From assembly GCF_041361465.1 (NCBI RefSeq), contig NZ_JBGKAC010000002.1:434001-498000 (forward strand): DNA of 64,000 bases. The letters are read 5' to 3'. A program made the position numbers and the translations under genes. This document shows positions 41,779 through 46,409 of this stretch, in pieces. Under the pieces are notes generated by a model. That model did no database searches. It was not told the origin of the DNA and was given only the letters and a program-made list of their open reading frames with translations. The stretch is from Halobaculum sp. MBLA0143 (GTDB taxonomy: Archaea; Halobacteriota; Halobacteria; Halobacteriales; Haloferacaceae). Each line of letters opens with the position of its first letter. Within the stretch, counting starts at the first letter, position 1.

Positions 41779-42432
41779 TCACGGACGGCGGCACCGGACG
41801 ACCACGCCGGCGACCGCGACCACGAGCGCCAGTAGGGCCGCGACCACATCGAGCCCGGGCCCACCGGCCGCGGTCTCGCCGTCGTCGCCGGGCGACTCGG
41901 TCGCGTCGCCCCCGCCGTCGGCCGCGGTCTCGGTCGTCTGTGTGCCGGTCGCCGTCCCCGTCTCGGCCGCGACGCGGACGGTCCCGGACTCCGTCGCCGG
42001 GTCGATCCGGCTGCCGTCGTCGGCGTCGAACCGCCCGTCGACGGAGACCGTCGCGGTGCCGGCGTCGTCGCCGCGGACGACGAGCCGCGCGACAGTGACG
42101 GCATCCGTGCGGTTCTGGACTGCCCCGTCGGTGTCGGCACCGCGGAGCCGGACGGTCGCGTCGTCGACGACGGTCGCGTTCGTCAGCCCGAACTGGTCGG
42201 AGACGTTCGCGTCGACCACGGTCGCGGCGCCGTCGACGGTGACGGTGGCGTCGTAGCCCGCGACGCCCGCAGGCGCAGCGGTCAGCCGCACCTGGACCAC
42301 GGTCGTCTCCCCGGGGGCGACCGTCGCGTCGGTGACGGTCACCGTGGGCGTCGTCTGGGCGCCCGCGCCGCCGGCGGCCAGCACCACCCCGACGACCGCC
42401 AGGGCCGCGACCGCCAGGACCGCGACTCTCAC
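41779..42432 (-). CDS. Membrane-anchored cohesin-like surface protein
   Basis: 217 residues. A Sec signal peptide (VAVLAVAALAVVGVVLAAGG) is followed by one cohesin-like beta-sandwich, residues about 27-150: VTVTDATVAPGETTVVQVRL, AGVAGYDATVTVDGAATVVD, GTATVSVDGRFDADDGSRI. A Thr/Gly/Glu/Asp-rich stalk then leads to a C-terminal helix (LDVVAALLALVVAVAGVVVR) with an Arg end, so the domain would be displayed on the cell surface. Cohesins bind dockerins through calcium-dependent contacts, and the gene immediately upstream on the same strand (52 bases away) encodes a dockerin. The two therefore plausibly form an attachment pair; interaction is inferred. Confidence 0.75.
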   Translation of the reverse strand: MRVAVLAVAALAVVGVVLAAGGAGAQTTPTVTVTDATVAPGETTVVQVRLTAAPAGVAGYDATVTVDGAATVVDANVSDQFGLTNATVVDDATVRLRGADTDGAVQNRTDAVTVARLVVRGDDAGTATVSVDGRFDADDGSRIDPATESGTVRVAAETGTATGTQTTETAADGGGDATESPGDDGETAAGGPGLDVVAALLALVVAVAGVVVRCRRP

Positions 42433-42484
42433 GCGGCCACCTCCGTCGACACCGCGAGCGCGGGTCGGGTCCGTGTCGACACGG

Positions 42485-44806
42485 TCACGACACCTCCTCG
42501 AACAGTGCCCGCACGTCGTCGAAGTCGATCCGCCCGTTGTCGTTGAAGTCGAACGCGTCGGCTCCCTCCACGTCGTCGGAGCCGACGTTCTCGAAGAACT
42601 CCGTCACGTCGTCGAAGTCCGCGCGGCCGTTGCCGTTGAGGTCCTCGCAGTCTCCGTCGTCGTCCGGGTCCGTCGTCGCCGTGCCGTCGACGGTCGGACA
42701 GGACCGCTCCGTCGCGGCGACGCGGCCACAGTCGGCCGCGAGCCGGACCGTCACGGACTCGCCGGCGTCCGTGTCGACGGTCTGGTCGGCGATCTCCACT
42801 CGGCCGCTGCCGGCCGCGGCCCCGGTCAGCCGGACGGTGCCCAGTCGGATCTCGTCGTCGTCCGGACCCAACCGGTCCGAGAGGTCGGCGACCTTCAGCC
42901 GGGCGACCTGGCCGTCCGTCTCCGCCGTCGCCGTACCGAACGACTCCGCGGCCGTCGCGGCCGTCGGTGTCACGGTCGACGGGAACCGGAGCCGGAGGTC
43001 AGCGCCGGAGAAGCCGGGGTCGAACCCCGTCAGTCGCACCCCCGCCGTCGTCTCGGCGTCGACGCCGACGGAGACGCTCTCGACGCACAGTCGCGGGCCG
43101 TCCCCGTCGTCGGTCTCCTCGGTCTCCTCGCCGTCGCCGACGGCACCGATCGGGTACGCGATCCGGCCGTCGTTCGAGAAACTGTCCGACGGCGGGAGCG
43201 TGTCGCCGGTCTGGTTCGCCAGACTCCGTTCGGCCTTCTCTCTCGCGCTCTCCCGTGACACCGCCGGCACCCAAGTCCAGTACACGTCGCCAGTCGCGGT
43301 CTCGGGGATCTCCGCCGTCACCGTCACCGTCCCGGAGCCAGCCTCGTCCATCTCGGCGAGTCCGTACACCGTGCCGTCGCCGCCGCCGATCGCGGCGAAC
43401 ACGATGTTCGCCTGTGCGTCGTCGGTGAGTGCCGTCACCTGGATCTCGACGCCGGCCTCCGAGCCCGCCGTGACCGACTCCGGCGCGCTCGTCAGCCGGC
43501 CGCGTTGGAACGCCTCGCCCGCGTCGTTCACTCGGACGATCGTCTGGTCGTTGCCCGCGTCGTCCGTCTGCTCGGCCTCGGTGACGGGCCCCAGCGGGAG
43601 CGCCAGCCGGCCGTCGTTCGAGAAGCTGTCGGACTCCGGGAGCCCGACGTCGACCCGGTTCAGGAGGCTCCGCTCGGCCTTCTCCAGGGCACCCCGGGCG
43701 GAGCTGGCCGGCACCCAGGTCCAGTACACCCGCTCGGGGGCGTCCTCGGGGATCTCTGCGGTCACGGTCACCGCCCCGGTGCCCGTGTTCTGCATCTCGT
43801 TCAGGCCGTACACCTCGCCGTTGCTGTTGCCGATCGCGGCGAACACGACGTTCGACTGTGCACCGTCGGTGAGCGCCGTCACCTGGATCTCGATGCCGAT
43901 CTCCGAGCCCGGAGTGAGCGACTCGGGGGGGTCCGTCAGCCGGCCGCGTTGGAACGTCTCGCCCGCGTCGTTCACCCGGACGATCGTCCGTGCGTCGTCC
44001 TCCTCGTCGTCCGTCTCCGTTGTCTCGGCCGCGTCCCCCTCGCCGTCGACGACCGTCAGCGAGTCGAAGAACATCTCCACGCTGAAGTCGTCGTAGTCGG
44101 AGCTGTCCGCGCCGGTCCAGCCGGACTTCTCGCCGACCGTGTTGGCGAAGTTCTGCACCTCGACGGCCGCCACGCTCGTCGCGTTCACCAGCTCGAACGT
44201 CCGGGTGACGCGGTTGTCCGGCGCCCCCGACTCGTCGAACTCGATCGTGAACGTCCCCGCGTCCCAGTCGAAGTCGACGGTCGTCCCCACCCAGGTCTCG
44301 TAGCCGGCCTCCGTCAGGCCGACCCGATCCAGCGTCTCCGGGGCCGTGTGTTCGACGTACCACTCCGGGTTGTCCGTGGCGAACCCACAGACCACGTTCC
44401 CGTCGGCGTCGAGCAGCCGGAGCCCGCCACCGTAGCTGCCGGACAGCTCCAGCCAGTTGCCGACGAAGCTGTCGATCCGTCGGCCGCCGGCGAGCACGTC
44501 CGGCTCGTAGGCCGCGATCCGCCGGTCGATCCCCTCGGCTCGGATTCCGAGGCTCCGCTCCCCCTCGTAGGCGTACGCCGTCGTCGGCCCGAAGCCGTCC
44601 TCGAACACGCGCCAGTCGTCCAGGTCCTCGCCGTCCTCTGTCGTGCGGTGTGAGGAGGCCGCCGCCCGGTCGGTGGTTCTCGACAGCCCGGTGCCGGCGA
44701 CGCCGACCGTCGCCAGCGACCCGAGCACGCTCCGTCGTGTCCGGCCGTCGCCCTCGGACGCCTGTCGGTCCCCAGACGCTCCGCCCCGCCCCTCGTGACT
44801 AGACAT
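42485..44806 (-). CDS. Large Tat-exported protein with repeats, cohesin-like domain and dockerin
   Basis: 773 residues. A twin-arginine signal (GRTRRSVLGSLATVGVAGTG) indicates Tat export. Residues about 60-255 form a concanavalin-like beta domain (DFDWDAGTFTIEFDESGAPD). Two tandem repeats of about 145 residues follow, each beginning TIVRVNDAGE.FQRGRLT and containing VYWTWVPA and SDSFSNDGR. Residues about 566-690 are cohesin-like (GVRLTGFDPGFSGADLRLRF). The C-terminus is a type I dockerin with two calcium loops, DLNGNGRADFDDV (722-734) and DFNDNGRIDFDDV (753-765). First gene of an operon with the anchored cohesin protein. No enzymatic motif was recognised. Confidence 0.8.
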   Translation of the reverse strand: MSSHEGRGGASGDRQASEGDGRTRRSVLGSLATVGVAGTGLSRTTDRAAASSHRTTEDGEDLDDWRVFEDGFGPTTAYAYEGERSLGIRAEGIDRRIAAYEPDVLAGGRRIDSFVGNWLELSGSYGGGLRLLDADGNVVCGFATDNPEWYVEHTAPETLDRVGLTEAGYETWVGTTVDFDWDAGTFTIEFDESGAPDNRVTRTFELVNATSVAAVEVQNFANTVGEKSGWTGADSSDYDDFSVEMFFDSLTVVDGEGDAAETTETDDEEDDARTIVRVNDAGETFQRGRLTDPPESLTPGSEIGIEIQVTALTDGAQSNVVFAAIGNSNGEVYGLNEMQNTGTGAVTVTAEIPEDAPERVYWTWVPASSARGALEKAERSLLNRVDVGLPESDSFSNDGRLALPLGPVTEAEQTDDAGNDQTIVRVNDAGEAFQRGRLTSAPESVTAGSEAGVEIQVTALTDDAQANIVFAAIGGGDGTVYGLAEMDEAGSGTVTVTAEIPETATGDVYWTWVPAVSRESAREKAERSLANQTGDTLPPSDSFSNDGRIAYPIGAVGDGEETEETDDGDGPRLCVESVSVGVDAETTAGVRLTGFDPGFSGADLRLRFPSTVTPTAATAAESFGTATAETDGQVARLKVADLSDRLGPDDDEIRLGTVRLTGAAAGSGRVEIADQTVDTDAGESVTVRLAADCGRVAATERSCPTVDGTATTDPDDDGDCEDLNGNGRADFDDVTEFFENVGSDDVEGADAFDFNDNGRIDFDDVRALFEEVS

Positions 44807-44931
44807 CGTCAGTTCACAGCGGCCTGTCGAACTTCAGCCCACGCCGTGAGCAGTCACCTCACCGCGTGGGTCGACGTGACGGGTTCGAGACAGATTCAAT
44901 ACACAGGGGTGGAGAACTCCCGACGGGGAGC

Positions 44932-45848
44932 ATGATCGACGGGGACGAGGGACCGACGGGGCGGCGGGTGGGATCGCCGGGTGGCGACGGACGGGGACAG
45001 AGTCTGGATGCGAACGTCGTCGAGTTGGCCCGGGACAGACACGCGATCGTGGACTACCTCCGCGACGGCCCGGAGACGCGGCGGGCGGTCGCGGAACGGG
45101 TCGACGCCTCGCGGTCGACGGTCGACCGGGCGCTGTCGACGCTCCACGAGCACGGGCTCGTCGAGCGGACGGCAGAGGGGTACGAGACGACGCTCGTCGG
45201 CGTGGTCGCGCTGGAACGGGCTCGCGAGTTCGACCGGGACGCCGAGGCGCTGGCTCGGGCTCGTCCGGCGCTGTGGCCGCTGTGGAAGGAGACCCCGGTG
45301 TCGGTCGACCTCCTCCGCGAGGCGACCGTCGGGGTCGGCGAGACCGTCGACGAGCTGTTGTCGGCTCTGACCACCCGCCTGGAACGGGCGCGAGACGTAC
45401 GGATCGCCGCCGCGGCGCTCCCCGGGACGGCCCACCTCCGGGGGCTCCACGGCCGCGCCGTCGGCGACTGTTCGGTGACGCTCGTCTGTGGACAGACGCT
45501 GTTCGAGGCGCTGCTGGACCGTCACCCCGGGTGGCTCCGGGGGCTCGTCTGTGACGGCGACGCGAGAGTCGCGCAGGCCGACCTCCCGGCGCTGGAGCTC
45601 GCGGTCGTCGAGACGAACGAGCAGACGGCCGCGTGGCTCGTCGTGTACGACGGCGGACGCCCGCACTCGGTCGTCTACAACGACACTGCCGACGCCGTGG
45701 CGTGGGCCGACGACTGTCTCGACGGCTACGTCGAGACGGCGACGGACCGCGTCGACCGCGTCCGGGCGTTGCCGTCGGAGACGCCGGTCGACACCCCCGG
45801 CGGTCCCGTCGGCGGCGGCGACCGCGACCGCCGTCGCCCGACACCGGG
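44932..45848 (+). CDS. Winged-helix regulator (FilR1-like), 3' end unclear
   Basis: Starts ATG 44932, about 305 residues before protein character is lost. The winged helix reads DANVVELARDRHAIVDYLRD, RRAVAERVDASRSTVDRALS, TLHEHGLVERTAEGYETTLV. The C-terminal domain resembles the FilR1/methanogen regulator middle domain (ALPGTAHLRGLHGRAVGDCS, VVETNEQTAAWLVVYDGGRP, SVVYNDTADAVAWADDCLDG). Near 45800 the frame becomes arginine-rich and runs without a stop to 46509, overlapping a LamG domain read in another frame. I infer a frameshift joining the two. Divergent from the dockerin gene, so a candidate regulator of it. Confidence 0.75.
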
Positions 45849-46409
45849 GTGGCCGACGGCAACCGGGCGGAGGCGTCGCTGCTCGCAGGGGGCTACAGCT
45901 ACGACGGCCGACCAGTCCGGACGCCGCAGTTCGGTACGGAGAGGACGTTCACGGTCGCGCTGTGGTTCCGGGCCGCGGCGCCCGACGACGGCTGGCAGAC
46001 GCTCGTCAAGTGGGACTACCTCGCCGTCGGGCTCCGGCACGGGCTCCTCTTCGCCCACGTGTACGACCCGGAGACGGACCGCGAGCGCGCCCGGACGGAC
46101 CTCCCGACGGCCGACCTCCGGGCCGACCGCTGGCACCACGTCGCGTACGTCTGTGACGACACCGCCGCGACGCTGTACCTCGACGGCCGCGAGGTCGACA
46201 CGACGACTCACGACGACCGGATCGAGATCGCCCCCCGCGGCGTCTGTCTGGGGTACATCTACCGCGACCGCGACACCGGGGTCCACGCGCCCGAGTTCGA
46301 CGGCCGGATCGTCGACGCCCGGTTCTACGAGACCAGGCTCGACGCCACGACGATCCGCGAGATCGTCGCCGCGACGAGCCCCGACGTGGCCGGCGACTCG
46401 CCGGTGTGA
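45849..46409 (+). CDS. LamG/concanavalin-like domain, probably frameshifted from the regulator
   Basis: 186 residues if read from GTG 45849. Clear LamG pattern: AEASLLAGGYSYDGRPVRTP, TERTFTVALWFRAAAPDDGW, QTLVKWDYLAVGLRHGLLFA, ADRWHHVAYVCDDTAATLYL, DGREVDTTTHDDRI, and FDGRIVDARFYETRLDATTI. The domain usually binds carbohydrate or protein. It has no signal peptide and no convincing start of its own, and begins exactly where the regulator frame decays, so it may be the C-terminal half of one HTH-FilR1-LamG protein disrupted by a one-base indel in the GC-rich run 45800-45848. A separate gene is the alternative. Confidence 0.65.
   Translation: MADGNRAEASLLAGGYSYDGRPVRTPQFGTERTFTVALWFRAAAPDDGWQTLVKWDYLAVGLRHGLLFAHVYDPETDRERARTDLPTADLRADRWHHVAYVCDDTAATLYLDGREVDTTTHDDRIEIAPRGVCLGYIYRDRDTGVHAPEFDGRIVDARFYETRLDATTIREIVAATSPDVAGDSPV

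Follow-up and report, generated by a model that had tools for sequence, protein, structure and literature searches.

The genome of Halobaculum sp. MBLA0143 encodes, side by side, an exported protein ending in a dockerin and a small membrane protein carrying a cohesin, raising the question of whether the two genes together form a device that holds a secreted protein at the cell. The window analyzed here, a stretch of 64,000 nucleotides (contig NZ_JBGKAC010000002.1, positions 434,001 to 498,000), belongs to a contig of 589 kb; the genome, 3.58 Mb in all, is assembled in two contigs.

Organization of the cargo and anchor genes

The two genes, referred to below as cargo and anchor, lie on the minus strand, with the anchor gene downstream of the cargo gene and an intergenic gap of 52 bp (ORF list).

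42485..44806, minus strand: cargo protein CDS (ORF; 773 aa, ATG start, Tat-type, C-terminal dockerin)
41779..42432, minus strand: membrane anchor CDS (ORF; 217 aa, GTG start; leave-one-out profile 132 bits, E 5e-39)
42437..42444, minus strand: Shine-Dalgarno-like GGAGGTGG, 4 nt 5' of the anchor GTG (sequence)

Within the anchor, a single cohesin domain is framed by a signal peptide on one side and by a stalk and membrane helix on the other:

42355..42432, minus strand: signal peptide, residues 1-26, ending in ..AGAQ (sequence, by eye; AlphaFold2 helix 2-18)
41968..42345, minus strand: cohesin domain, residues 30-155, nine strands (AlphaFold2, Foldseek; the 46 top PDB matches are all cohesins)
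41851..41967, minus strand: acidic Thr/Gly/Asp-rich stalk, residues 156-194 (sequence; low pLDDT)
41779..41850, minus strand: C-terminal transmembrane helix with basic tail RCRRP (sequence; AlphaFold2 helix 195-214)

The cargo protein is longer and more composite, with a second cohesin domain directly ahead of its dockerin:

44672..44806, minus strand: Tat signal region, residues 1-45, with TRRSVLG and then a hydrophobic stretch (sequence, by eye)
44042..44644, minus strand: N-terminal domain, residues 55-255 (without Pfam, NCBIfam or PDB match)
43571..43990, minus strand: internal repeat 1, ~140 aa (69% identity to repeat 2)
43127..43546, minus strand: internal repeat 2, ~140 aa (69% identity to repeat 1)
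42710..43093, minus strand: cargo-internal cohesin domain, ~residues 572-699 (AlphaFold2 pLDDT ~90; top PDB match 2xdh, 2.8e-8)
42488..42688, minus strand: dockerin module, residues 707-773, with a DPDDDGDCED calcium-type loop ahead (profile 71.6 bits; AlphaFold2)
42608..42643, minus strand: calcium loop 1, DLNGNGRADFDD, residues 722-733 (sequence; ligand positions conserved in alignment A3)
42515..42550, minus strand: calcium loop 2, DFNDNGRIDFDD, residues 753-764 (sequence; ligand positions conserved in alignment A3)

Analysis of the two open reading frames bore out the account given in the earlier note. Both lie where it had placed them (ORF list: 773 aa from an ATG, 217 aa from a GTG); the large protein carries a TRRSVLG signal of the Tat type and two canonical 12-residue dockerin-type loops at its end; and sequence, AlphaFold2 and Foldseek agree on a signal peptide, one cohesin, an acidic stalk and a C-terminal helix in the small one. 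The computed net charge is −100 for the cargo protein and −15 for the anchor, an acidity typical of haloarchaeal proteins.

Most of the cargo protein is without recognizable relatives. Residues 55-565 matched nothing in Pfam, NCBIfam, PDB sequences or the 391 genomes of the class, and the whole protein, used as a single-sequence query against genome contigs, found no relative, probably because of this N-terminal part. Weak matches to the N-terminal half in two genomes (G122 and G136) were spurious, the clear ORF there encoding a metallo-beta-lactamase-like (RNase Z-type) protein.

Cohesin and dockerin assignment

Pfam and NCBIfam say very little about the two window proteins, and their identity was therefore built on fold and family profiles. 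The anchor scores 21.5 bits against PF00963, below the cut-off of 24.1, and is missing from the hmmscan output; hmmscan of the cargo protein returned EF-hand models only (EF-hand_6, E 0.0013), with no match to Pfam Dockerin_1 or cohesin. A second anchor, encoded on contig 1, exceeds the PF00963 cut-off at 30.5 bits, and the Dockerin_1 cut-off of 22.9 is passed by relatives within the subfamily (L041, 23.1; L049, 23.7; L058, 26.0; L061, 29.0; L067, 28.5). In the HMM search suggested beforehand as a check, the window's own cohesin and dockerin thus fall below the cut-offs, whereas the dockerins of these five relatives and the contig-1 anchor lie above them. Leave-one-out family profiles, from which the window sequences were excluded, recognized the anchor with 132 bits (E 5e-39); for the dockerin the score was 72 bits (E 7e-21).

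The anchor profile had no match among PDB sequences, so that fold comparison was needed. AlphaFold2, given 18 aligned sequences, placed nine strands in anchor residues 30-155, mostly at pLDDT >90, and in a Foldseek comparison of this model with the PDB the top 46 matches were cohesins, headed by 5nrm (E 1e-9), with archaeal 2xdh at 1e-8. For the cargo protein, a model of its last 215 residues, built from 30 aligned sequences (mean pLDDT 89), also matches cohesins, A. fulgidus 2xdh first (2.8e-8). According to these models, both cohesin domains belong to the nine-stranded jelly-roll fold of cohesins. The structure prediction proposed in the earlier note therefore found this fold in the anchor and in the cargo C-terminal part; the domain at 41779-42432, whose placement outside the fold had been named as grounds for rejecting the idea, has cohesins as its 46 top PDB matches, and the cohesin-like domain ascribed to the cargo protein itself has 2xdh as its top match (2.8e-8).

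In the dockerin part of the cargo model, a loop-helix unit occurs twice after the cohesin, a dockerin-like order. The module has the type I layout of two 12-residue calcium loops plus helices within ~60 residues, and the ligand positions are conserved across 29 aligned sequences. When the dockerin profile was run against PDB sequences, EF-hand proteins scored equal to dockerins, and the case for a dockerin is consequently based on architecture and family.

Measured against known arrangements, the pair differs from a cellulosome, having one cohesin in the anchor and no hydrolase or CBM. It has the A. fulgidus-type noncellulosomal arrangement of adjoining archaeal genes, one with a dockerin and one with a cohesin, and also the cassette layout of its relatives, in which the cargo ends in cohesin plus dockerin and the anchor gene follows directly downstream on the same strand. 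The window cargo has no enzyme domain by Pfam or NCBIfam and so lacks the phosphatase or nuclease that usually, though not always, belongs to this cassette.

Linkage of the pair across Halobacteria

The cargo protein found matches in 43 of 148 genomes of the same archaeal family, nearly always through its C-terminal module. In many of these loci the cargo is followed by a protein of 230-270 aa with a signal peptide, a C-terminal helix and a basic end, and these downstream proteins can be aligned to the window anchor along the whole of their own length, at 32-39% identity. A survey of the class covered 391 Halobacteria genomes, with counts taken among the matches listed and with profiles in which the window was one row of 18 and one of 29; a pair was called where an anchor lay ≤600 bp downstream of a dockerin gene on the same strand. 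Per-genome counts of cohesin-profile matches were given no weight, because they also take in the cohesin within the cargo.

Among the matches listed, 89 full-length anchors were found in 86 of the 391 genomes and 112 strong dockerins in 91 genomes. An anchor lies directly downstream of 84 of these 112 dockerins, and a dockerin lies upstream of 84 of the 89 anchors, so that the co-occurrence check called for in the earlier note came out in favor of the pairing, within the same matches. Most of the 28 unpaired dockerins among the matches listed are in genomes whose anchor adjoins another dockerin, in tandem or at a distant locus. No anchor was recognizable in two Halegenticoccus assemblies, one Halogranum assembly and about six genomes of the class sample, all of which have a dockerin protein. 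Relatives with a dockerin protein and no cohesin partner, which had been named beforehand as evidence against the pairing, are therefore a minority of genomes, and in most the partner is present. The arrangement had also been thought unusual; at least 86 of the 391 Halobacteria genomes hold a full-length anchor of the same family, and that view has to be given up. Outside Halobacteria, the same layout occurs in two MAGs, one of Archaeoglobaceae (L124) and one of ANME-2 (L128), and in three Methanomicrobiales loci (L163, L164 and L171) several dockerin genes stand in a row ahead of a match to the cohesin profile.

Usual cargo and relationships of the anchors

A set of 56 cargo proteins was compiled from named haloarchaeal loci chosen by similarity to the window C-terminal module; given this choice, the counts describe the window dockerin subfamily rather than all haloarchaeal dockerins. 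Among the 56 are 43 matches to the alkaline phosphatase PhoX, 5 to SNase (nuclease of the staphylococcal type), 3 to PhoD, 2 to choice-of-anchor-I proteins, and one each to 5'-nucleotidase and GDPD (glycerophosphodiester phosphodiesterase), from genera including Haloarcula, Halorubrum, Natrinema, Haloplanus, Halorientalis, Halobaculum and Natrialba. The usual cargo of the family thus consists of phosphatases and nucleases, with exported hydrolases as the consistent theme, and the earlier description of the pair as being without enzymes applies to the window cargo only, not to the family. That description had overlooked the usual cargo, exported PhoX first. The window cargo is a lineage-specific protein, unlike the usual phosphate-releasing enzymes.

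Several genomes have one anchor and two or more dockerin enzymes. In one of them (G082), PhoX, PhoD, a choice-of-anchor-I protein and a 5'-nucleotidase all carry the module, and the single strong full-length anchor is encoded beside PhoX, which led us to suggest that a single anchor may be shared among several enzymes.

In a tree of the anchors, the window anchor falls among anchors of nuclease cargo, apart from those of PhoX, with support (88/79) that is not strong. Haloarchaeobius iranensis carries one anchor of the nuclease type (L113) and one of the PhoX type (L151), which sit on different branches. Anchors thus tend to track cargo type and not species, the pattern expected of matched pairs. 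Positions such as L57, E97, A98 and Q134 are conserved in anchor cohesins and not in cargo cohesins, suggesting that the two kinds of cohesin have different partners; the window anchor deviates at these positions. The two faces of the anchor cohesin are equally conserved (mean entropy 1.52 versus 1.53 in anchors), and the binding face is thus not inferable from conservation.

Alternative explanations of the pair

The main alternative to docking on the membrane is docking on the cargo itself: the dockerin would bind the cohesin of the cargo protein, within or between chains, to give oligomers or chains that the membrane cohesin caps or nucleates. A cohesin stands just ahead of the dockerin in nearly all cargo of the family, that of the window folds as a cohesin, and Halegenticoccus and Halogranum cargo retains both cohesin and dockerin where an anchor was not found; about six further genomes likewise have cargo and no recognizable anchor. 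Such self-association would, however, require another explanation for the close linkage between anchor genes and dockerin genes (84 of the 89 anchors, among the matches listed), and anchor-specific positions such as L57, E97, A98 and Q134 also argue against it, even though the window anchor deviates there; we consider it unlikely. The calcium loops might instead only stabilize the protein or aid substrate binding, next to a cohesin that is unrelated to them. A part in substrate binding has been described for the dockerins of haloarchaeal mannanases and GAG lyases (PMC10963439, PMC13260240), and the equal scores of EF-hand proteins in the profile search also speak for this reading. One and the same C-terminal module is found, however, on catalytically unrelated enzymes, and is thus not substrate specific, and for about three quarters of the dockerins among the matches listed there is genetic coupling to a cohesin protein, which makes this explanation the most improbable of those considered.

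A further alternative concerns the means of attachment and leaves cohesin-dockerin docking valid. Archaeosortase-type signals have a tripartite tail and a diagnostic PGF motif. The tail of the anchor (a Gly/Pro-rich start, a hydrophobic helix and a basic end) is similar in outline, and might be cut and linked to lipid. The PGF motif is missing, however, from the window anchor (..GGPGLDVVAAL..) and from the aligned anchors, and processing of this kind seems quite unlikely.

Proposed mechanism of surface attachment

We propose that the two genes probably encode a two-component surface attachment device for exported proteins, based on calcium-dependent display by a membrane cohesin. This proposal starts from what is directly supported, namely the gene layout, the cohesin folds, the dockerin loops and their family, the class-wide linkage and the typical cargo; from these we infer dockerin-anchor binding, its calcium dependence, the topology of the two proteins and the display function. 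The 773-aa cargo would be exported folded by the Tat route, and the 217-aa anchor would be inserted separately through its signal peptide; its C-terminal helix would keep it in the membrane, with a single cohesin exposed outside the cell on a flexible acidic stalk. There, the calcium-loaded dockerin of the cargo would bind the anchor cohesin, and the cargo would be retained on the cell. The pair is widespread in haloarchaea, with enzymes that release phosphate, PhoX above all, as its usual cargo, and it probably spread as an anchor for phosphate scavenging; in the window it carries a different, lineage-specific cargo.

An extension of this proposal, which we put forward tentatively and rate at somewhat less than an even chance, is a surface complex for phosphate scavenging, in which one membrane cohesin would display, through calcium-dependent docking, several exported enzymes (PhoX, PhoD, 5'-nucleotidase, GDPD and SNase) encoded by local and distant genes, the window being a re-use for new cargo. 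The cargo's own cohesin could act as a competitor for dockerins. PhoX was sought as a second cargo in the source genome and none was found, and only one dockerin of the window subfamily is present there among the matches listed; both observations were counted against display by the membrane cohesin.

Comparison with known cohesin-dockerin systems

Noncellulosomal cohesin-dockerin pairs are already known from A. fulgidus, ANME archaea and planctomycetes. In A. fulgidus, the dockerin of ORF2375 and the cohesin of ORF2376 bind strongly and specifically and have been used in surface display (PMC9705933); the title of a 1999 paper, cited in PMC9012536, terms this pair an enigmatic vestige. The haloarchaeal pair resembles AF2375/AF2376 in being archaeal and without a cellulosome, the two A. 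fulgidus ORFs being consecutively numbered, and in its cohesin fold match (2xdh), but the haloarchaeal anchor is small with a single cohesin, and the haloarchaeal cargo has its own cohesin ahead of the dockerin. With clostridial cellulosomes it shares a calcium-loop dockerin on a secreted protein and a cohesin on a cell-bound one; in contrast to them, it is without cellulases, CBM or a multi-cohesin scaffoldin, and its anchor is held by a membrane helix.

Dockerin and cohesin modules likewise occur in ANME archaea, where they have been proposed to fix proteins to the outer cell layer (PMC9012536). Unlike the haloarchaeal pair, the ANME systems have scaffoldin-like members that carry as many as five cohesins, and the dockerins are on transporter binding and S-layer proteins (PMC9012536). 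For the planctomycete 'planctosome', cohesin-dockerin attachment of non-cellulolytic exoenzymes and a two-module adaptor have been proposed (PMC6461901). The attachment of such exoenzymes, and an adaptor with both modules, as in the haloarchaeal cargo proteins, are points of likeness; the planctosome differs in being bacterial, in its peptidases and large multidomain anchors, and in that no two-gene cassette has been described for it (PMC6461901). Surface anchoring through cohesins has also been suggested for a corrosive Methanococcus (PMC11452385). In the openly readable literature we found no account of a link between archaeal dockerins and PhoX or of a haloarchaeal cohesin-dockerin cassette, and the pair and its relatives suggest an undescribed way of keeping secreted enzymes at the cell.

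The conservation of the pair speaks against haloarchaeal dockerins being substrate-binding domains. Noncellulosomal cohesin-dockerin pairs have long been without a clear job, and in Halobacteria the pair is conserved and has a coherent, mostly phosphate-releasing cargo, so that the function of such pairs in archaea can be put to a direct test in cultured genera, among them Haloarcula, Halorubrum and Natrinema.

A second cohesin-dockerin pair in the Halobaculum genome

Analysis of the Halobaculum sp. MBLA0143 genome revealed a cohesin-dockerin pair (locus L005) that is more canonical than the window pair, with the subtilase-dockerin gene preceding that of the signal-cohesin-membrane protein.

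Genes of the second pair (G000:C1, near 253192-257380)
L005:5193-8552, subtilase with dockerin (Dockerin_1, E 4e-12; cohesin match, 21.8 bits)
L005:8611-9381, 256-aa signal-cohesin-membrane protein (PF00963, 28 bits)

In the profile search, neither gene matched the profiles of the window-type family, the haloarchaeal cassette of dockerin cargo and cohesin anchor, and thus the genome seems to carry two separate cohesin-dockerin pairs.

Surroundings of the window pair

A 14-nt perfect palindrome, CCGTGTCGACACGG, lies at window 42471-42484, immediately past the cargo stop codon. The divergent neighbour (window 44866-46409, plus strand) consists of an HTH-type regulator frame that runs into a Laminin_G_3 domain in a different frame. 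The open frame containing the LamG match spans 495 aa in genome G002 and 666 aa in genome G050, compared to 284 aa in the window, suggesting that the window copy may be frameshifted.

Variation among relatives

PhoX-type proteins of Halogranum and Halegenticoccus (L060, L061, L062 and L067; genomes G060, G042 and G018) retain cohesin and dockerin, and a genome-wide search of the same three genomes found no window-type anchor. At L184:4200-5014 (G221), the anchor gene is broken into two overlapping frames, reflecting either mutation or sequencing error; next to it, two dockerin proteins are encoded in tandem.

At L085:4580-8050 (G009, a genome from the window's own genus), a PQQ-propeller protein with a C-terminal dockerin is followed by a protein of 649 aa. 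This second protein contains two or more cohesin-like regions, ends in a calcium-loop C-terminus of its own, and may be an adaptor or a small scaffoldin of haloarchaea. Loci L078, L083 and L087 have similar neighbours.

Finally, the nuclease-type cargo proteins (L144, L113 and L066; ~1150-1420 aa) combine GATase-like DUF4350 repeats, SNase, cohesin and dockerin, and their phosphate source may be extracellular DNA.
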